A DNA stretch of 33,622 nucleotides from Myxococcales bacterium (GTDB taxonomy: Bacteria > Myxococcota_A > UBA796 > SXON01). The position numbers and the translations under genes are program-made. The DNA lies in contig SHYV01000019.1 in assembly GCA_009692605.1 (NCBI GenBank), positions 1-33,622 on the forward strand. Reading direction: 5' to 3'. Positions 10,819 to 20,885 of the stretch are shown piece after piece. Numbering within the stretch: position 1 is the stretch's first letter; the number at the start of each line of letters is the position of its first letter. The notes under the pieces were generated by a model that saw only the letters and a list, made by a program, of their open reading frames with translations, was not told where the DNA came from and made no database searches.

Positions 10819-10919
10819 CGGCTCGGCCACCGTGGCGGTGCCGCAGCGCGCCTTCCGTAGTCCTGCCGGCATTGCCTGCCGCCCGGGTCGCGTTACCAGT
10901 TGTGGGTTCTTTCCCCAAC

Positions 10920-11112
10920 TTACGTGACGTCCAGGTGCCGCGCAGCGCGCGGTGAAACGGGAAGCTGGTTTAAATCCAGCACGGCCCCCGCCACTGTCAT
11001 CGGGTACGCGTCTCTCCTTGTTGCAAGTCCAAAAGACCAGCAACACGCCACTGGGGTTTCCTGGGAAGGCGGAGAGGTCGCGGACGATCCGAGAGTCAGG
11101 AGACCGGCCTCG
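10920..11112 (+). promoter_or_regulatory. Cobalamin (AdoCbl/B12) riboswitch
   Basis: ggtgccgcgcagcgcgcggtgaaacgGGAAgctGGTttaaatCCagcacggcccCCGCCACTGTcatc ... gAGTCAGGAGACCGGCC (11094-11109), matching the conserved B12 riboswitch core and B12 box. Confidence 0.95.
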
Positions 11113-11207
11113 ACGTTCTTTAGCCGCCGTCCTTCGGGGTGCGTGATGGGGCGTGCTGTGCGGTAGCGTGTTTTCACGAACCTCCGGTGACGTCCCTCTC
11201 CACAGGG

Positions 11208-13400
11208 ATGGCCGGATGGTTCGTGGTCCCTTTTGCCCTCATCGCCGCTCTCATCGCCCACCGGGTGTTCGCGCTTGCGCCGGACGCTTTCGGGGAGGAC
11301 GTTGGTGATCGGCCCGACGAGGCGGATGCCACCGTCGACGTCCAAGCCGCCCCGCCCGGCTCGGCGTCCGCGACGGTGACCTCGGTCCCGCTCGGGCCGG
11401 ACGTCGCCGGCGTCACGAGCCTCGCAGGCGTTCTGGACCGGGTGCCGGGCACGACCGTTCGCAAGATGGGTGGTTTGGGGGACTTTTCGGCGGTGCGCCT
11501 GCGTGGTTCGACGTTTCAACAGGTCGAGATCTTCCTCGACGGTGTCCCGCTCAACCCGAACGGCGACAGCGTGGTCGATCTCGCGTCCCTCCCCGTCGCT
11601 ACGTTCTCCCGCATGCTGGTGTACCGCGGCTTCGCGCCTGCGCGGTACGGCTCCGCCGCGATGGGGGGTGTAGTGGACCTGCTCACGGCATCCGGCTCCG
11701 CGACGGCATCGCCGGCCGCCCTCGGGATCTCGGCCGGCTCGTGGGGAACCCTGCACTCGTGGGGCGCGACCCGGCGGGCCGTTGGGATGACCGACGTCCT
11801 GCTCACCTTCGATCAGCTCCACACCGACGGCAACTGGCCGTACTTTGACGATCAGGGCACGGAGTACAACCGGCTCGACGACCGCACGCCGCGGCGCGAG
11901 CACAACCGGATCGACCGTGCGAGCGGGGTCGCGAGGGTGCGCACTCGGCTCGGCACAGCGTCGTTCACGCTGTTGGACACGCCGACCTGGACCGACGAGG
12001 AGCTCACCGGGACCATCTCCAACCCGGCCTCGGCCGCCATCTGGGCGGGGGCCCGGAACCTGCTGGTGTTCGACGCGGACTTCGTTGGCGCGGTGGCCGC
12101 GGTGCGCCGCACCTCGGTCACCGGGCCACAGGTGCTCTGGCGTGTTCGGCCCCGACTGTGGTGGCTCCACCGGGACGAGACGCTGAATGATCCGCTCGCG
12201 GAGCTGGGGGTCGGGGGTGCGTGGACCCGCGGCGTCTGGAACACCGGCGGCGCGCAGGTGGACACCGTGCTGGCTCCGGCGCGATGGTTGACCGCGAGTC
12301 TGCTGGTCCGCGCCCGCGACGATGTCTACACCGGCTTCGATCTGACCCAGGCCGACGAGAACGGCGGGGCTACGGGTGCGACGGACGGCGAGCGCAGCCG
12401 GCAGGCCCTGACACTGGCGCTGTCGGGCGACGCAGTCCTCCCGGTGGGCATCGGGTCCATCACCCTCTCGCCGATCCTCCAGCTTGACGTGCTCGACAAT
12501 CACCTGCTGGGTGAGGTGCCGTTTGGCGATCTTGCCGTGTCGCCGGGCACCGAGGACCTGGACGTTCACCTGCTCCCGCGCGGCGCGGCCAGCTGGACCC
12601 CCTGGGGCCCGTTGACCTTCCGTGGCAGCGCCGGACTCTATAAGCGCGCGCCGGACCTGAACGAGCTGTTCGGGGATCAGGGCCTGCTCGTGGGGAACAC
12701 GGATCTGGTGGCCGAGAGCGGGTTCGGGCTGGAGGCGGGTGCCCGCGTCGCGGACACCCGGGTGGGCCCGCTCACCGTCGGCACGGACCTCGCGTACGCG
12801 CGGCAGCGGGTCCACGACCTCATCACCTACGTGCCAAACTCCCAGCAGACGGAGCACGCCGTCAACCTCGACGAAGCCTACTTTCGGTCGCTCGAGGGAG
12901 GGCTGTCGTTGGGTCTGGATGGACACCTCGGCGGCTTGGGCCTCGCGCTCCGATCGGACTCCGCTGTGACCCAGATCCTCGCCAGAAACCTCGATTCAAG
13001 CCCGACCTACAGCAACAATGCGCTCCCGAATGTCGCGCCGCTGGACGTGTCACAGACCACATCGTTGTCCATGTCTGCGAGATGGTTGGACCGCCTGTCC
13101 TTGTCCCACTCGTGGTCCTATACGTCGGCTACCTTTCAGGACGAGGCCAACCAGATTCCGACGGCACCGCGGGACCTGCATTCGGTCGCGGCCTCGGTGC
13201 GGGTCTCCCGTGCGCTGCCCACTGTTGAGGCCTCCATCCTGAACCTTTTTAATGTCCGCGGCATGGCCGTCGACCGGAATCCCCTCGATCCCGGCGATGA
13301 CACGCTCGTCGTCAAGCCCCTGACCGACTTTGTCGGCTACCCCCTCCCCGGTCGCACCGTGATGGTCACGGCGCGATGGGAAGGCTCTGTAATCCCATGA
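11208..13400 (+). CDS. btuB: TonB-dependent outer-membrane receptor, BtuB-like
   Basis: Signal peptide MAGWFVVPFALIAALIAHRVFA; plug motifs 'GDFSAVRLRGSTFQQVEIFLDGVPLNPNGDSVVDLASLP...RGFAPARYGSAAMGGVVDL'; directly downstream of the cobalamin riboswitch. Alternative starts GTG 11187 or 11139. Confidence 0.9.
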   Translation: MAGWFVVPFALIAALIAHRVFALAPDAFGEDVGDRPDEADATVDVQAAPPGSASATVTSVPLGPDVAGVTSLAGVLDRVPGTTVRKMGGLGDFSAVRLRGSTFQQVEIFLDGVPLNPNGDSVVDLASLPVATFSRMLVYRGFAPARYGSAAMGGVVDLLTASGSATASPAALGISAGSWGTLHSWGATRRAVGMTDVLLTFDQLHTDGNWPYFDDQGTEYNRLDDRTPRREHNRIDRASGVARVRTRLGTASFTLLDTPTWTDEELTGTISNPASAAIWAGARNLLVFDADFVGAVAAVRRTSVTGPQVLWRVRPRLWWLHRDETLNDPLAELGVGGAWTRGVWNTGGAQVDTVLAPARWLTASLLVRARDDVYTGFDLTQADENGGATGATDGERSRQALTLALSGDAVLPVGIGSITLSPILQLDVLDNHLLGEVPFGDLAVSPGTEDLDVHLLPRGAASWTPWGPLTFRGSAGLYKRAPDLNELFGDQGLLVGNTDLVAESGFGLEAGARVADTRVGPLTVGTDLAYARQRVHDLITYVPNSQQTEHAVNLDEAYFRSLEGGLSLGLDGHLGGLGLALRSDSAVTQILARNLDSSPTYSNNALPNVAPLDVSQTTSLSMSARWLDRLSLSHSWSYTSATFQDEANQIPTAPRDLHSVAASVRVSRALPTVEASILNLFNVRGMAVDRNPLDPGDDTLVVKPLTDFVGYPLPGRTVMVTARWEGSVIP

Positions 13401-13412
13401 AGGAGTATTTCA

Positions 13413-14645
13413 ATGCGACGCTTTAGTTCCAAAACCTCGTTGATCACCGACCTGCTTTCCTCTTCCGTCCTGCTGTTCGTCGCGGCCGGTCTTAGCGGCT
13501 GTGATCCGCGGGTCGGCGACGACACCGCTGGGCCGCCCGCGGACACCGACACGGACACCGACACGGACACCGACACGGACACCGACACGGACACGGACTC
13601 GGACACCGACACCGACACGGACGCCGACGTCAACTACACCGTCGTGGCCACGACCACCGACTACACGACGGGCGCCCTGGTCACGCTCTCGAAGGACGGT
13701 GTCTTGACCGACAGCGTCCTCCCGGTCTCGTCCGATGCTGCGGTGCGCACGATCGGGAACTCGGTTTACGTGCTCAACCGGTCCACTGAAAACACCGTTC
13801 AACGGTTCGACAACCTTAACTTCTCCGCGCCCGGTCCGGGTGGCGAGTTCTCCACCGGGGACAGCTCAAACCCGGTCGACGTGGTGGAGTGCAACGGGTC
13901 CGTCGTGGTCTCGCTCTACGCGACCGACGGCCTCGGGGTCTACGACCGCTCTACCGGCCTTCAGACCGGCTCGGTAGACCTGTCCGCGTTCGCCGACCGC
14001 GACGGCAGCCCCGAGCCGGACTCGATGTTCGTCGCCCCGAACGGCTACCTCTACGTGGCCATGAACCAGCTTGAATTCTACGTCTCCGCGGACGGCAGCG
14101 GCACACTCGCGAAGGTCGACTGCAGCACCTGGCAGGTGGTGGACTCCTGGGACGTCGGCCCGAACCCTTTGATGCAGGCCGACCCGTTCAACGCGGACGG
14201 TGTGGTGCTTACCGGCGGGAATTTCTTCAACGCCGACTACAGTGGCCCCGATCTGGACGGCGGACTCTACACCTTCGATACCAGCGACGACATCCTGACC
14301 GGCCCTCTGCTGACCGAAGCGGACCTCGGGTACAACCTCGGCGGAATCGTCGGAAGCGACGGTTACCTCGTCTCTTCGATCAACGACGGCTCAGTCTGGT
14401 CGCTGCTCTGCATCGATGTCAGCGACTGGTCGATGGTGACGAAGGACCTTGGCAACGCCTACATTGGCTCGATGGCGGCCACGCCGGAAGGGAGCATCTG
14501 GGCCGCTGTGGGGTATGGCTACGGGTCCAGCGGGGCAACCCCCGATGTCGGCTTCGTACCTGTCGACGCCGCTGGCTGCACGACGGGAGCAGCGGTGCTC
14601 TCAGCGCTGGCCCCGAGCTCCATCGCGGTCTCCGTGCAGCCGTGA
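13413..14645 (+). CDS. Surface/periplasmic beta-propeller-like lipoprotein with (DT)n linker
   Basis: Lipobox AGLSGC; linker DTDTDTDT...DADV; repeated blade-like units (VECNGSVVVSLYATDGLGVYDRSTGLQTGSVDL; MFVAPNGYLYVAMNQ; VPVDAAGCTTG). Confidence 0.85.
   Translation: MRRFSSKTSLITDLLSSSVLLFVAAGLSGCDPRVGDDTAGPPADTDTDTDTDTDTDTDTDTDSDTDTDTDADVNYTVVATTTDYTTGALVTLSKDGVLTDSVLPVSSDAAVRTIGNSVYVLNRSTENTVQRFDNLNFSAPGPGGEFSTGDSSNPVDVVECNGSVVVSLYATDGLGVYDRSTGLQTGSVDLSAFADRDGSPEPDSMFVAPNGYLYVAMNQLEFYVSADGSGTLAKVDCSTWQVVDSWDVGPNPLMQADPFNADGVVLTGGNFFNADYSGPDLDGGLYTFDTSDDILTGPLLTEADLGYNLGGIVGSDGYLVSSINDGSVWSLLCIDVSDWSMVTKDLGNAYIGSMAATPEGSIWAAVGYGYGSSGATPDVGFVPVDAAGCTTGAAVLSALAPSSIAVSVQP
13542..13626 (+). repeat. 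GACACS hexanucleotide/12-bp repeat encoding Asp-Thr linker
   Basis: gacaccgacacggacaccgacacg... read directly. Confidence 0.95.
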
Positions 14646-14992
14646 CGGCGTGCAGGTCTCCGTCGTGCAGCCCGCAACGTTGGGGCTGGCTGTTGGTCGG
14701 GGTCTGCGCCGTCGTGGCGACACCGGCCTGCGCGCTGCTCGCGCCGACGGACGCCTGCGATACGCTCTGTGTACACGCTCAGTCCAAATTCGAGAGTTGT
14801 CTTGAGGACAACGGCCTCGAATGGGGGACCTCGGTGGGCTTCACCTCCGAGCTGGACTTCGTGGACTGGTGTGCCACCTACGCCTGGGAGGAGCGCCAAC
14901 TCGACGGCGGTGCGCAATGCGCCGCCCGACAGGCGATCATCGACGGGGGCGATTGCGCCGCCTGGTACACCGCATGGGGTGACCTCGAGTGA
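14642..14992 (+). CDS. Small Cys-rich lipoprotein
   Basis: GTG start overlapping previous stop (GTGA); lipobox-like TPAC; conserved-looking Cys pattern ACDTLC..SC..WC..QC..DC. Confidence 0.75.
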   Translation: MTACRSPSCSPQRWGWLLVGVCAVVATPACALLAPTDACDTLCVHAQSKFESCLEDNGLEWGTSVGFTSELDFVDWCATYAWEERQLDGGAQCAARQAIIDGGDCAAWYTAWGDLE

Positions 14993-16533
14993 GTGGGGCT
15001 CAACACATATCGAGGTGTGTCAGTGGGCTTGGCGTCCTACTGGCGGTGATGATGTTGGGCGTACTCAGCTGTGGGGGGCCTCAGCCGGACCCTTCAACCG
15101 CGCACTTTCTGCGCGGCGCCGTGTTGCGCTCCGATGGTTCGATTGAGGTTCGCGCGTGGACCCCGGGTGAGGTGGTGGACGGCGCGGTCGCTCCGCGCAT
15201 GCCGGAGTGTCGGCCGGTCATGCATGTCCTTCTGGAGGACCGCCGCTCGGACGCGGAGCAGGGAGTCCCGCCCGCGGGGGTCTCGATGGAGTTTTCACCC
15301 GACGGCTCGCTCCTCGCGCTTGGCACGGTCGAAGGGAGGGTGGATGTGATCCGCGTGCCGCGTGGCGAGGTCGTGGCGTCACGGAGGCTGGCGGAGGGCG
15401 CGGTGAAGCAGGTCGCGTTCAGCGCCGATGGAGACACGCTGTTCGTTGGGGAGCAGTCGCCGGACGCGTTCCTCTACGCTCTCGACCCCGCTACCCTCAA
15501 CGAGCGTTGGAAGGTGCGGCTCGCGGACGACATCGACGCGAGCACCTTGCCGGCGACGGATACCATGTACGGCCGGTACTCGTTGCCTGGGGCTTACGCC
15601 GTCAAGCCGCTCGTGGGTGGCGGCCTGATCGTGGCGGGGGCGCACGGATGGACGGTGGACGGCGTGCGGCGGAACCGTTCGCGCATTTGGCGGCTGTCGG
15701 GCGATGGGGCGGTCGTGGCTGCGTTCCCAGTGGGCGGTGCGGCGGACGCCGTGTTCCTTTTCCCGTCCGTGTCCGAGGAGGGAGCCGGTGACGTGCTGGT
15801 CGGAGTCTCACGGTCCGCCGACGGGCCCGCTCCGGCAGAGCTACCGGTGGGTGGGCTTGTGGACCTCGATCTGGAGACGCTCACGCCGCGCTGGACTCGG
15901 ACGTTTTCGCCCCTCTCGCCCTGGTTCTCTGAGGTGTTCTTCTGGGAGGCGGTTGTTCGGGGGCCTGACTACGCCTTCGCGGGGCTCGGGGACGGTCGTG
16001 GGTTCTTGCTCGCCGACGACGGCTCAAGCCGAGCGGAGATCGGGCCTGGGGTGCCGGTGGACACCGCCGGGGTTCCGGTTGGGGTTGGGGTCGGCTACGC
16101 GGTCGCGGGTCCCGAAGGGGTCTGGTATCTTACGACCGGGACGAACATCCCGTGGGGGAGCGCCGATCCCGCGGCCCGCCCTCCGGCAGCTCACCCGGCA
16201 GAAAATACCGTGCATGCTGTATTTCCAGACGGTAAGCCGCGCTGGGATCGCTCCGTTCGTCACTCCGTGGGGGGCATTGTGCTCTCGCCTGACCGCGCGG
16301 AGCTGCTGGTGGCCGCCGGGCCGCGGGACTCGGACAGCCGTACCGACCTCTTCGGCGCGATCGTGCTCGCCGCGGACACCGGGGACTGGATCACGACCTG
16401 CTCCACGTCCGGTCCGGCGGATTTCCGGCCGGTCTTCGGGCCGGACGGCGGCTGGATTGCCATCGCTGAGGCGCCCTACCGTAGGGGCGATGGCACGGTC
16501 GCCGGTGCTTACCAGGTCACGGTGTTTCGGTGA
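14989..16533 (+). CDS. WD40/PQQ-like beta-propeller lipoprotein
   Basis: GTGA overlap start; lipobox LGVLSC; 'GVSMEFSPDGSLLALGTVEGRVDVIRVPRGEVVASRRLAEGAVKQVAFSADGDTLFVGEQ...FLYALDPATLNERWKV'. Confidence 0.85.
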   Translation: MSGAQHISRCVSGLGVLLAVMMLGVLSCGGPQPDPSTAHFLRGAVLRSDGSIEVRAWTPGEVVDGAVAPRMPECRPVMHVLLEDRRSDAEQGVPPAGVSMEFSPDGSLLALGTVEGRVDVIRVPRGEVVASRRLAEGAVKQVAFSADGDTLFVGEQSPDAFLYALDPATLNERWKVRLADDIDASTLPATDTMYGRYSLPGAYAVKPLVGGGLIVAGAHGWTVDGVRRNRSRIWRLSGDGAVVAAFPVGGAADAVFLFPSVSEEGAGDVLVGVSRSADGPAPAELPVGGLVDLDLETLTPRWTRTFSPLSPWFSEVFFWEAVVRGPDYAFAGLGDGRGFLLADDGSSRAEIGPGVPVDTAGVPVGVGVGYAVAGPEGVWYLTTGTNIPWGSADPAARPPAAHPAENTVHAVFPDGKPRWDRSVRHSVGGIVLSPDRAELLVAAGPRDSDSRTDLFGAIVLAADTGDWITTCSTSGPADFRPVFGPDGGWIAIAEAPYRRGDGTVAGAYQVTVFR

Positions 16534-18242
16534 AGCCCGCGGGTTGGATCGCTGCTGCCGGCGTGCTGTTCGGGGTGGGGTGCTCTCAGCCTGGGCCACT
16601 CGTGGTCGGGGTGGAGTGGGTCGGGGACGGGGTCGAGCTTCGCGCCTCGAGTCCTGTGTCGATCGTTCGGATTGAGACGGTGGATGGCGAGCTTCTCGTG
16701 GTGAACGCGCTTGCTACGCCAGCATCAGAGGTCTTCGTCGGTGTGGTGGAGCCCCGAGGCGACGTCGTCGTCCATGTAGTTGGCTGGGTGGGCGACGAGG
16801 AGCAGCGTGTCTCGGTCACGGTGGCGGTCCCGGAGCCGGGGGCCTGGACCGCCGAGGTGCAGCCGGCCCCGGGCGCCGAGTGGGCTCCAGCGGCAGGTCG
16901 CATGGAGGTTCCGCTGTGGGGGCCTTCCGCGACGATCTTCGTCCGGCTCACGGCTGGGGCTGCTGCGGTGGACGTTCCGACTGGACTGGGTGCGGTCCAC
17001 CTCCCGGCGCCGGGGAGCCGCGCGTTGCTCGCTGTGCCGGTGACCGGTGACCGTGTGCTTCACATCGGGGATCTGGAGCTTACGCTGGTGGCGGTTCACC
17101 GTGACGTGTCTGGGGCGGGCGCCGCGCTCACGCTCGATCCCCTCGTCTTCCCGGCGGAGCAGAACGGTACGCGGGACCTGGGGCGCCCAACGGACGCTGT
17201 GGCCCTGCCGTCCCCGGTGTGGGAGCGCGTGCTGGCGCAGACGGGCAGCGGTGTGCGTGGGCGGGCGGTGGAGGAGCCCTGGTCGTTTGTCGCGGTGCCC
17301 GTCCGAAATGAGGGGCCGGTGCCGATCGATCTCGTCGTCGCTACCTGGGTGACCGACGGCGCAGAGCCGGCTGCGACGTTTCGACCGCGGCTCCGCTCGG
17401 CTGACGGGGGCACGGGACGAACCACCGCGCTCCTGCGGGTGCCGGCCGGTGGGGAGTCGCGCGCGGTCCTCCCGGTCTTCGTCGACACCATCGGAGTCGA
17501 GTCCGGTGTCTACGACCTGCATGCGGAGGTGACGCCGCTCGGCAGCCCCACCGTGCTGGCCTCCACGGTCCTGCCCCTGGCGGTGCGCCGGGGGGACGCT
17601 GTCTCATCGGGCGGCTTTGTGGCCACGCTCATCCTGAGTGTCGCCGGGCTGGCGTGGACCGCGTGGACCCTTCCGGGGTGGCTGCGCCGGGCGTCCACGA
17701 CGGACCTCATGGTCAACGCGCTGTTCGGGACTGCGCTGTTTGTGGTCTCGACCGCTACGGACGTGGTCTCTATGTCCGCGGGGGCGGTCCTCGGGCCGTT
17801 CGCGACCTTGTTCACAGGGATCCTCTACGATGCTGGTCGCACCGTGCTCATCGCCACGCTGCTGCAGCTCCAACCTCGACCGGGCGCGTTGGCCTTGTCG
17901 GTGCTGTGCGGTTGGATGGGACGGGGTGTGCTCACCGGTGCGATCAGCGCCCCCGATCTGCTCTACACCGGGGTCGCCATCGCGCTCGGAGAGGGCTTCG
18001 CGTGGATCTCGGGGCTGACACGCGGCCAGCCGCTCACCGTGCTTCGCCTGTCCATCGCGCTGGGGCTGTCGAACGCCTTGCTGACGCTGTGCGGGCTCTG
18101 GCTCCACACCGTGATGTACCGGCTCACGTTCGCGAGCTGGTACATCGCGCTCCAGGTCGGGCTTCCTGGCTTCTTGTACGTCCTGCTCGCCTGTAGGTTG
18201 GCGGTGCCCTTCGCTGAGAGCCTGAGGGAGGTGGATGCATGA
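16530..18242 (+). CDS. Lipoprotein-anchored periplasmic domain fused to a C-terminal polytopic membrane domain; candidate ECF S-component
   Basis: GTGA overlap; N-term lipobox FGVGC; about 360 aa beta-rich soluble region; then about 6-7 hydrophobic helices from GGFVATLILSVAGLAW onward; adjacent to and ATGA-coupled with EcfA-A-T. Confidence 0.75.
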   Translation: MKPAGWIAAAGVLFGVGCSQPGPLVVGVEWVGDGVELRASSPVSIVRIETVDGELLVVNALATPASEVFVGVVEPRGDVVVHVVGWVGDEEQRVSVTVAVPEPGAWTAEVQPAPGAEWAPAAGRMEVPLWGPSATIFVRLTAGAAAVDVPTGLGAVHLPAPGSRALLAVPVTGDRVLHIGDLELTLVAVHRDVSGAGAALTLDPLVFPAEQNGTRDLGRPTDAVALPSPVWERVLAQTGSGVRGRAVEEPWSFVAVPVRNEGPVPIDLVVATWVTDGAEPAATFRPRLRSADGGTGRTTALLRVPAGGESRAVLPVFVDTIGVESGVYDLHAEVTPLGSPTVLASTVLPLAVRRGDAVSSGGFVATLILSVAGLAWTAWTLPGWLRRASTTDLMVNALFGTALFVVSTATDVVSMSAGAVLGPFATLFTGILYDAGRTVLIATLLQLQPRPGALALSVLCGWMGRGVLTGAISAPDLLYTGVAIALGEGFAWISGLTRGQPLTVLRLSIALGLSNALLTLCGLWLHTVMYRLTFASWYIALQVGLPGFLYVLLACRLAVPFAESLREVDA

Positions 18243-20488
18243 CACATCTGATATGTGTTGATGCGGCCGTGTACCAGTTCCCGAGCGGCGGCGGCGTGGG
18301 TCCGTTCAGCCTCCGGGTGGCGGGCGGTGAGCTGGTGGTTCTGGCCGGCGCGACTGGTTCCGGAAAGTCCACCGTGGTTCGGATGATCGCGGGGCTGGTC
18401 CAACGTCACGGGCACGGGCGTATGACAGGCTCGGTCACCGTCTGTGGTCGGGACCCAGGCGCCCTGAGCGGCGGAGAGCGCGTGCGGGTGCTCGGGTTTG
18501 TGGGTCAGGAGGTGGACGACTGCATTCTCGCGGGCACTTGCGCTGGAGAGGTCGCGTTTGCGCTGGAGAGCGCAGGGCTCCCAGCGGACCGGGTGGGCCC
18601 GGCTCTGGCGCGCGTGGGGTTGGCGGGGTTCGAGGATCGTGACCCACGGGAGATCAGCGGGGGTGAGCGGCAACGCCTGATTCTGGCTGCCGCGCTCGCG
18701 GCCGAGCCTTCAGTGCTGCTGCTGGACGAGCCGCTCAGCCAGCTCGATCCCGAGGGTGCGCGGGCCGTGGTCCGGGTGCTGCGGGCGGTGGCCGACGAGG
18801 GCGTGGCCGTGGTGCTCGTCGAGCACCGGCTCGGACTACTGGCCTGCGCGGATCGGGTCGTTACGATGGGGGGGCGGCCACCTGACCGCGCAGTGTTCCA
18901 CGTGGAACGTCCCGCGCCCGCTCCAGCTGGAGATCCGGTCGTTCACGCAGCCCGGCCGCTGCTGGACCTCCGGCAAGTGACGTTCCTGTACGACGGAGCG
19001 CGCGGGGTTCACGGCGTCGATTTCTTGGTCCGTGAGGGCGAGAGGGTCGCGATTGTGGGTGGAAATGGAGCGGGCAAGTCGACATTGATCGGTCTCCTTT
19101 CGGAGCGGTTCAGCCCGATGTTGGGGGCCATTCTTCGCGTCGGGTCGGTCATCGAGGTGCCGCAGAACGCTGACCTTGTCCTGTTCTCCCGGACCGTGGC
19201 TGCGGAGCTGGCGTACGCTCCAGAAGAGTGGGGGGCTGCAGCGGATCTCACGATCCTCGCGGACTTTGGCCTCGCTGGGCTGGGCACCCGCGCCCCTCAG
19301 GCGCTCTCGCGGGGGCAGCGCCTGCGCCTTGCGGTCGCGTCGACGGTCGCGGCGTCTCCCGACGTGCTGGTGCTGGATGAGGCCGGCAGCGGTCAGGACC
19401 CCGCCAGCCTCGCCGGACTTTTCGAGGCCATCCGAAGGCGCTCGACCACCACGGTGTTTTCAAGTCATGATCCCGAGCTTGTCGCCGCCATCGCCACCCG
19501 CGTCGTGTGGCTTGATGGCGGGCGCGTAGTGGACGATCAGCCCGTCGCGGCGAGCCGCTGGCTGGGGCTGGCCGGGCAGGTTCGCGTGGCACCCGCGGCC
19601 GCGCTCCTGCCCCTGCCCTTGCCCACGTCGCCGCCCCCGTCGACCGCGGCGAGGGTGGGCCCCGAGCACCGTGGGCTGGATGCCCGGCTCCGGATCCTGC
19701 TGGTTGGTATACTCGGGGTACTTGTGGTGTTGTTCGAGGGGGTTGTCCCGCTCTCTGGCCTCGCCTGCGGCTGCCTCGTGGCTGCGCTCGCCCACCCCCG
19801 GGCCGTCGGTTGGCGTCGGGGGCTCGTCGTTGCTTCCGCGCTTTTGGCCTGGTCCACGGCGCTGTCGCAGGGGCTCTTCTGGGCCGCCTGGCCAAGGACG
19901 CCGGTGGTCCAGCTCGGCGGGCTCACGCTTTGGAAGGAGGGGGCGCTCCACGGGTTGGCGCAATCGACGCGGTTCATCGCGCTCGGCGCGGGGGGCCTCC
20001 TGCTCGCGCTCTCCACCCCGAGTGACGAGCTGATCACGGCGCTCCGAGCGCGGGTCGGGCGGTTCAGCCTGCCCTTCGCCCTCGTCATTATGGTCGCTGC
20101 GATGGTTCGATTCGTGCCGGTCGTGGCGGTCGAATGGGCGCAGGTCCGACGGGCCCGCAGGGCGCGCGGTCGACCCATCTGGCGCAGATCACCGTCGGCA
20201 TGGCTCGCGGTCGAGGTCGCCCTGCTTCGGCCGGTGGTCGCGCGATGTGTCCGTCGCGCACGGATGCTAGCCGAGTCGCTCGACACCCGCGGGTTCGACC
20301 CCGCGTCGCCACGGGGTATCGCTCGACCGCTCATCTGGCGGACCTCCGACAGCGTCCTCCTCCTGGGGGCGCTGGCCGGTCTGGTTGGCGTCAGCGGGTG
20401 CCGCGTCCTGTACGGGTTGTACACCGCGGACGTCTGGTATCACTCGCGCCTTCGGCCGCTCTACGCCTTCGTGCGTGCGGCGTTTTGA
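18239..20488 (+). CDS. Single-chain ECF transporter energizing module: two ABC ATPase domains fused to EcfT/CbiQ transmembrane domain
   Basis: Walker A GATGSGKST and GGNGAGKST; signatures ISGGERQRL and LSRGQRLRL; Walker B SVLLLDEP and DVLVLDEA; C-term CbiQ-like TM domain with Ala-Arg-Gly-type coupling motifs (RRARRARGRPIW; AESLDTRGFD). Confidence 0.93.
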   Translation: MTHLICVDAAVYQFPSGGGVGPFSLRVAGGELVVLAGATGSGKSTVVRMIAGLVQRHGHGRMTGSVTVCGRDPGALSGGERVRVLGFVGQEVDDCILAGTCAGEVAFALESAGLPADRVGPALARVGLAGFEDRDPREISGGERQRLILAAALAAEPSVLLLDEPLSQLDPEGARAVVRVLRAVADEGVAVVLVEHRLGLLACADRVVTMGGRPPDRAVFHVERPAPAPAGDPVVHAARPLLDLRQVTFLYDGARGVHGVDFLVREGERVAIVGGNGAGKSTLIGLLSERFSPMLGAILRVGSVIEVPQNADLVLFSRTVAAELAYAPEEWGAAADLTILADFGLAGLGTRAPQALSRGQRLRLAVASTVAASPDVLVLDEAGSGQDPASLAGLFEAIRRRSTTTVFSSHDPELVAAIATRVVWLDGGRVVDDQPVAASRWLGLAGQVRVAPAAALLPLPLPTSPPPSTAARVGPEHRGLDARLRILLVGILGVLVVLFEGVVPLSGLACGCLVAALAHPRAVGWRRGLVVASALLAWSTALSQGLFWAAWPRTPVVQLGGLTLWKEGALHGLAQSTRFIALGAGGLLLALSTPSDELITALRARVGRFSLPFALVIMVAAMVRFVPVVAVEWAQVRRARRARGRPIWRRSPSAWLAVEVALLRPVVARCVRRARMLAESLDTRGFDPASPRGIARPLIWRTSDSVLLLGALAGLVGVSGCRVLYGLYTADVWYHSRLRPLYAFVRAAF

Positions 20489-20489
20489 G

Positions 20490-20885
20490 CTACCCGCTGC
20501 CGAGCAGCGCGTCGACGGTCTGTTGGTCTGCCCCGGGAAACTGGTATTGGCCGAATTCATCCGGCCTGACCCAGCGGAACTCGTTCACCCGGGCGGGGCG
20601 GGGCGCTCCGATCAGCGCACATCGGTAGACCACCATGTCGAGCGCGTAGGCTTCGTAGGAGTGCGTCACGTGCAGGACGCGATGGCCGATCTGGGCACCC
20701 GCATCCAGCCGGTCCCGAATGGTCCGTCGAAGGGCGTCCGAGTCGCTCTCGCCCTCCTGCACGCGCCCTCCGGGGAACTCCCAGAGCATCGGCAACGCGG
20801 CCTCCTGCCTCCGCTGGGTGATGAGGTAGCGGCCGTCCCGCTCAATCTCGGCGGCGACGATGCGGATGTGGGGTAGGTTGGACAC
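20490..20885 (-). CDS. Nudix-fold (MutT-like) protein with degenerate Nudix box
   Basis: RYLITQRRQEAALPMLWEFPGGRVQEGESDSDALRRTIRDRLDA. Confidence 0.88.
   Translation of the reverse strand: MSNLPHIRIVAAEIERDGRYLITQRRQEAALPMLWEFPGGRVQEGESDSDALRRTIRDRLDAGAQIGHRVLHVTHSYEAYALDMVVYRCALIGAPRPARVNEFRWVRPDEFGQYQFPGADQQTVDALLGSG

Follow-up and report, generated by a model that had tools for sequence, protein, structure and literature searches.

In Bacteroides, the propeller lipoproteins BtuG1, BtuG2 and BtuG3 (DUF5074/PF16819) form pedal-bin complexes, BtuBG, with the corrinoid receptor BtuB (PMC6143338, PMC10404256). btuG has been called exclusively Bacteroidetes (PMC6143338), lipoprotein-capped TonB transporters have been called apparently exclusive for Bacteroidetes (PMC10404256), and no report of BtuG outside Bacteroidota was found in the literature searched. 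The question raised by the locus described here, located in a 33,622-nucleotide stretch of DNA (hereafter referred to as the window), is whether the lipoprotein gene that follows btuB encodes such a lid in another lineage. I argue that it quite probably does, the protein being distantly homologous to BtuG and its counterpart in function, that is a stalked, corrinoid-capturing surface lid on BtuB, where binding, capping and surface display are all inferred.

The lipoprotein gene and its operon

The open reading frame begins 12 nt past the btuB stop codon, with a ribosome-binding site (AAGGAG) just 5' of it. Because of this spacing, this site, and the presence of domain relatives in 69 of the 113 related genomes searched (as a rule one in each, with identities mostly reaching down to ∼30%), it is a real gene. 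It belongs to a compact, same-strand operon that consists of a cobalamin riboswitch, btuB, the propeller lipoprotein, a Cys-rich lipoprotein, a WD40-like lipoprotein, a membrane protein and a fused ECF module (Table 1). These genes touch each other or share a few bases; after them, the first likely gene (20490–20885) lies on the opposite strand.

The original prediction had placed the lipoprotein directly after btuB, under the same cobalamin riboswitch, and both statements hold. The riboswitch reaches 110 bits in Rfam, where the gathering score is 31.5 (E = 5e-27), and the family profile of the upstream gene finds solved BtuB structures as its best matches (6e-36 for E. coli BtuB, 3e-30 for B. 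theta BtuB3). The likely start of btuB is the ATG at 11208, with the longest open reading frame beginning at a GTG at 11139. The riboswitch is the only cobalamin riboswitch copy detected in its own genome, which is 79%-complete. The G+C content of 68.5% speaks against a Bacteroidota host. The B12-binding domain has 18 matches in this genome, which indicates, at the level of predicted domains, that the organism uses corrinoids.

Table 1. Features of the window, with the evidence on which each assignment is based.
Feature	Position	Strand	Basis
Cobalamin riboswitch aptamer controlling the operon	10916..11126	+	Rfam RF00174, 110.2 bits, full-length model 1-189
btuB, TonB-dependent outer-membrane corrinoid receptor	11208..13400	+	Pfam plug and barrel domains
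BtuG-like propeller lipoprotein, proposed surface lid, 410 aa	13413..14645	+	ORF, AF2 model, Foldseek, hhalign, synteny
Signal peptide with lipobox LSG/C	13413..13502	+	Sequence; lipid Cys codon 13500-13502
Acidic low-complexity (DT)n linker, proposed stalk	13503..13625	+	Sequence; length and composition differ among relatives
Propeller domain, 339 aa, net charge -33	13626..14642	+	AF2 mean pLDDT 88.8, pTM 0.89; charge
Loop GGNFFNADYSGPDLDGG, domain residues 197-213, aligned with BtuG2 beta5A	14214..14264	+	Alignments; loop function PMC10404256
Small Cys-rich lipoprotein, conserved next gene	14642..14992	+	10 Cys; family alignment; synteny
WD40-like second propeller lipoprotein	14989..16533	+	Pfam, profile comparison, synteny
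Membrane protein, proposed ECF S-component	16530..18242	+	Lipobox-like Cys, Ig-like extracytoplasmic part, C-terminal helical membrane region
Fused EcfA-EcfA'-EcfT energising module	18239..20488	+	Two ABC_tran stretches and CbiQ domain; ECF ATPase NCBIfam matches

A lipobox was found in 26 members of the propeller family with a readable N-terminus. The long (DT)n spacer that had been noted after the lipid Cys, and read as a stalk, is present in the window protein, but its (DT)n motif is not shared by the relatives, whose linkers are acidic, span 23–62 amino acids, and differ in composition. A putative flexible acidic stalk, and not (DT)n, is the sole linker trait held across the family. The charge of the domain is also conserved, with a family median of -33. 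The residues that follow the lipid Cys are CDPRV in the window protein and varied in the relatives, and the Bacteroidota lipoprotein export signal is absent at this position from the window protein and its relatives alike. Since this signal has been described as exclusive to Bacteroidetes (PMC6143338), its absence leaves the localisation undecided.

Fold and relationship to BtuG

Pfam and NCBIfam scans of the propeller lipoprotein identified no family, the sole NCBIfam match being weak and located on the linker, and a single-sequence phmmer search against the PDB returned just a low-complexity match, also on the linker. The AF2 model of the domain, computed from 13 sequences without templates, is nearly all beta, and its confident propeller-type architecture bears out the blade-like repeats that had been suspected. 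When 350,542 PDB chains were searched with this model by Foldseek, all but one of the first 16 matches were BtuG structures (E-values of 3.5e-11 to 2e-9, query TM of 0.69–0.76), namely BtuG1 (8blw), BtuG1/BtuG2 (8ptd/8ptf), BtuG2 (8bai, 8bmx, 8bmy, 8bmz and 8bn0), BtuG3 (8okv and 8p97) and a B. uniformis homologue (3dsm). The lone non-BtuG structure among these is the archaeal YVTN propeller 1l0q, with a TM of 0.64 and a BtuG-level E-value. The next tier, starting at an E-value of 1e-8 and a TM of ∼0.5, includes XusB, a Bacteroides lid (TM 0.63–0.66). Judged from the model, BtuG is the closest solved fold, and a non-propeller fold, which would have refuted the original prediction, was not obtained. 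The domain is predicted to be a seven-bladed beta-propeller, although the number of blades is inferred from the match to the seven-bladed BtuG and not from coordinates. In the structural alignments, just 11–16% of residues are identical to BtuG.

For comparison at the sequence level, BtuG references were drawn from Bacteroidota plasmid records, and comprise L113, two Persicobacter proteins and one Chondrinema protein. L113 is 100% identical to the solved BtuG2 over a 199-aa stretch and shares its numbering, and the reference genes adjoin TonB-receptor genes where annotated. Genuine BtuGs match Pfam PF16819/DUF5074 at 1e-20 to 1e-33, whereas neither the window protein nor any of 28 propeller-family members has a match to this Pfam family; as Pfam defines the family, the protein is not a DUF5074 member. 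An hhalign comparison of the propeller-family alignment with the four real BtuGs nonetheless gave a probability of 91.5% (E = 8.8e-7, for a single comparison) over 257 collinear columns, and single sequences gave 82.6% for the Chondrinema BtuG and 33.9% for BtuG2. In contrast, the control values were 0.6% (WD40 lipoprotein of the operon against the propeller family), 1.2% (the same protein against BtuG), 1.3% (E. coli YncE) and 2.7% (E. coli Pgl). On these profile comparisons, the kinship to BtuG is therefore specific, beyond that of generic propellers, yet remote. Searching PDB sequences with an HMM gave a less clear picture, with Lp49 first, BtuG entries from ∼0.01 and YncE at 0.025.

In BtuG2, B12 is gripped by the loops Asn54–Thr64, beta5A Asp236–Pro249 (Tyr239) and beta5B Lys266–Ser274 (Trp272), the cavity is narrowed by Trp194, Trp272 and Tyr316, and Tyr335 contacts the adenosyl group of adenosylcobalamin (PMC10404256). 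These contact loops align to conserved loops of the propeller family, DYTTG (domain residues 12–16), GGNFFNADYSGPDLDGG and LTEADLGYNLGG (residues 229–240), and the Chondrinema BtuG shows GNYTADYSALENSGS at the position of the second of these. Tyr335 aligns with Tyr299, and many relatives have an aromatic residue at or next to this position. The two pocket Trp are not conserved: Trp272 is matched by Asn237, and Trp194 falls on a position that is not aromatic. The putative pocket is therefore not identical to that of BtuG2. Long-range electrostatic capture in BtuG2 is held to be driven by its strong negative charge (net -18e; PMC10404256), and the charge of the propeller family would be consistent with this.

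The window protein and BtuG thus have in common a lipoprotein nature, the propeller fold, a btuB-adjacent gene, cobalamin-riboswitch control, strong negative charge and a collinear, remote sequence kinship. They differ in bacterial lineage, in the Pfam match, the low identity and the pocket Trp described above, in four Cys conserved in the window protein family, and in the long acidic stalk without Bacteroidota export signal, where BtuG has a short linker. Other known proteins are further removed. XusB (DUF4374), the lid of XusA, is likewise a propeller lipoprotein and caps a TonB-dependent transporter, but it binds ferric siderophores via a hook, is a weaker structural match and is from Bacteroidota (PMC13142918). 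YncE shares with the window protein a propeller gene beside that of a TonB-dependent receptor (PqqU, for PQQ) outside Bacteroidota, but is transcribed divergently from the receptor gene, has no lipoprotein annotation and is distant by profile. The E. coli pqqU-yncE locus (L159, 2964–6369) is another receptor-propeller pair outside Bacteroidota. SusD, BtuH and BtuJ (DUF4465) are surface lipoproteins that aid TonB-dependent uptake in Bacteroides, and their folds differ from that of the window protein (general knowledge and PMC13398666); no Pfam match of the SusD, BtuH or BtuJ type was found among the operon proteins scanned.

Linkage of the propeller family to btuB

Profile searches identified the propeller family in almost all genomes of the class to which the window belongs, and a weaker form of it across the phylum; a scan of the genome contigs with a narrow-alignment profile gave 13 loci, all in the same group. 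I examined 61 loci (the window and its relatives), 58 of which have enough upstream sequence for btuB to be assessed, and btuB is directly upstream of the propeller gene in 55 of these. It is the most constant operon partner, the Cys-rich, WD40 and ECF genes being less constant, and in several genomes the unit consists of riboswitch, btuB and propeller alone, which is the minimal unit. Among the 20 larger loci from relatives that were scanned with Rfam, 19 have the riboswitch, and btuB and the riboswitch also neighbour the propeller gene in many of the remote relatives. The equivalence to BtuG proposed in the original prediction is supported in those parts that computation can address, by the riboswitch, the btuB partner, the lipobox, a propeller fold nearest to BtuG, the remote sequence kinship with its low controls, and this family-wide linkage; its biochemical half remains inference.

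In a tree with long branches, the partner BtuBs group together in a clade separate from the BtuBs of Bacteroidota. A recent transfer of btuB from Bacteroidota, which the tree does not support, therefore looks unlikely.

Several loci depart from the common arrangement. In one remote relative, L097 (5076–6413), a riboswitch lies directly 5' of a lone propeller lipoprotein with no adjoining btuB, possibly a free-standing B12 scavenger. Remote propeller lipoproteins without btuB (L093–L096, L099 and L112) imply that the superfamily has further roles. In L138 and L146, ECF and S-component-like genes are upstream of btuB-propeller and not downstream, suggesting rearranged yet still linked modules. 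In L040 (7150–18741, genome G012), the whole riboswitch-btuB-propeller-cysLP-WD40 block is inverted and duplicated around one centre, possibly as an assembly artefact.

Proposed role and downstream genes

At low B12, the riboswitch would permit expression of the operon, which would fall once cobalamin is bound to it. The lipid-anchored propeller, on its flexible acidic stalk, would capture a corrinoid at the cell surface and dock on BtuB, which would take up the corrinoid with TonB energy. Import would then proceed via the ECF-type inner-membrane transporter of the window operon. Corrinoid binding, BtuB capping, outer-leaflet display and hand-over are inferred.

A lipoprotein of a diderm might instead face the periplasm, as a BtuF-like carrier passing B12 from BtuB to the inner-membrane transporter. 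The operon has no obvious periplasmic binding protein, and E. coli has a propeller gene, yncE, adjoining the PQQ receptor gene. I nevertheless consider this unlikely: the propeller tracks btuB and not the inner-membrane transporter, many riboswitch-btuB-propeller loci being without ECF genes, and some of the genomes with such loci have a BtuC-type permease elsewhere. Also, the nearest folds are surface lids, and YncE is not close by profile. ECF transporters need no soluble binding proteins, which counts against a carrier of this kind.

The adjacency to btuB, and a fold nearest to BtuG, also speak against a surface-exposed corrinoid handler that forms no lid on BtuB and scavenges on its own, in the manner of BtuH or BtuJ. 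The long variable stalk and the L097 locus would fit such a role, which I regard as distinctly improbable. Propellers are common folds, and with remote btuB-less propeller lipoproteins elsewhere in the phylum, a generic protein that is an operon member by chance, with no role in corrinoid uptake, could be envisaged; this is hardly credible given that linkage and riboswitch control are conserved across several families, and that the resemblance to BtuG is specific against control propellers.

If the protein is indeed a lid on BtuB, lidded B12 receptors, and lipoprotein-capped TonB transport, are not only a Bacteroidota invention. With a near-universal BtuG-like BtuB partner in a second lineage, the lid mechanism would become a general one, and an independent natural variant would be available for testing B12 capture and release by a lid. 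It would also point to a lid function for further "hypothetical propeller lipoproteins" found next to TonB receptors. I lean towards the view that a class far from Bacteroidota (probably Myxococcota) runs BtuBG-like lidded B12 receptors, with the lid on a long acidic stalk, and that one branch couples these to an ECF-type transporter that replaces BtuFCD and whose extracytoplasmic part is Ig-like.

The membrane protein of the operon has no Pfam or PDB sequence match, and most of its Foldseek matches, at very low TM, were to Ig-like or other beta folds. Its assignment as the ECF S-component is a proposal, inferred from its topology and its place in the operon. Genomes with operon ECF genes mostly have no strong match of the BtuC type (FecCD), G013 being an exception, and several genomes without operon ECF genes have one. 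A replacement of BtuFCD by the ECF module is suggested by this pattern but not proven, and B12 transport by the module is inferred. Positions 16530–20488 of the window present a riboswitch-controlled ECF-type transporter in a diderm.

The Cys-rich lipoprotein, directly 3' of the propeller gene, has no Pfam match and shows an invariant Cys pattern and a WGTSVGY-like motif. The WD40-like lipoprotein was considered as the BtuG of the operon and ruled out by the profile comparison above, being unrelated to BtuG; it is strongly conserved, with many invariant residues.
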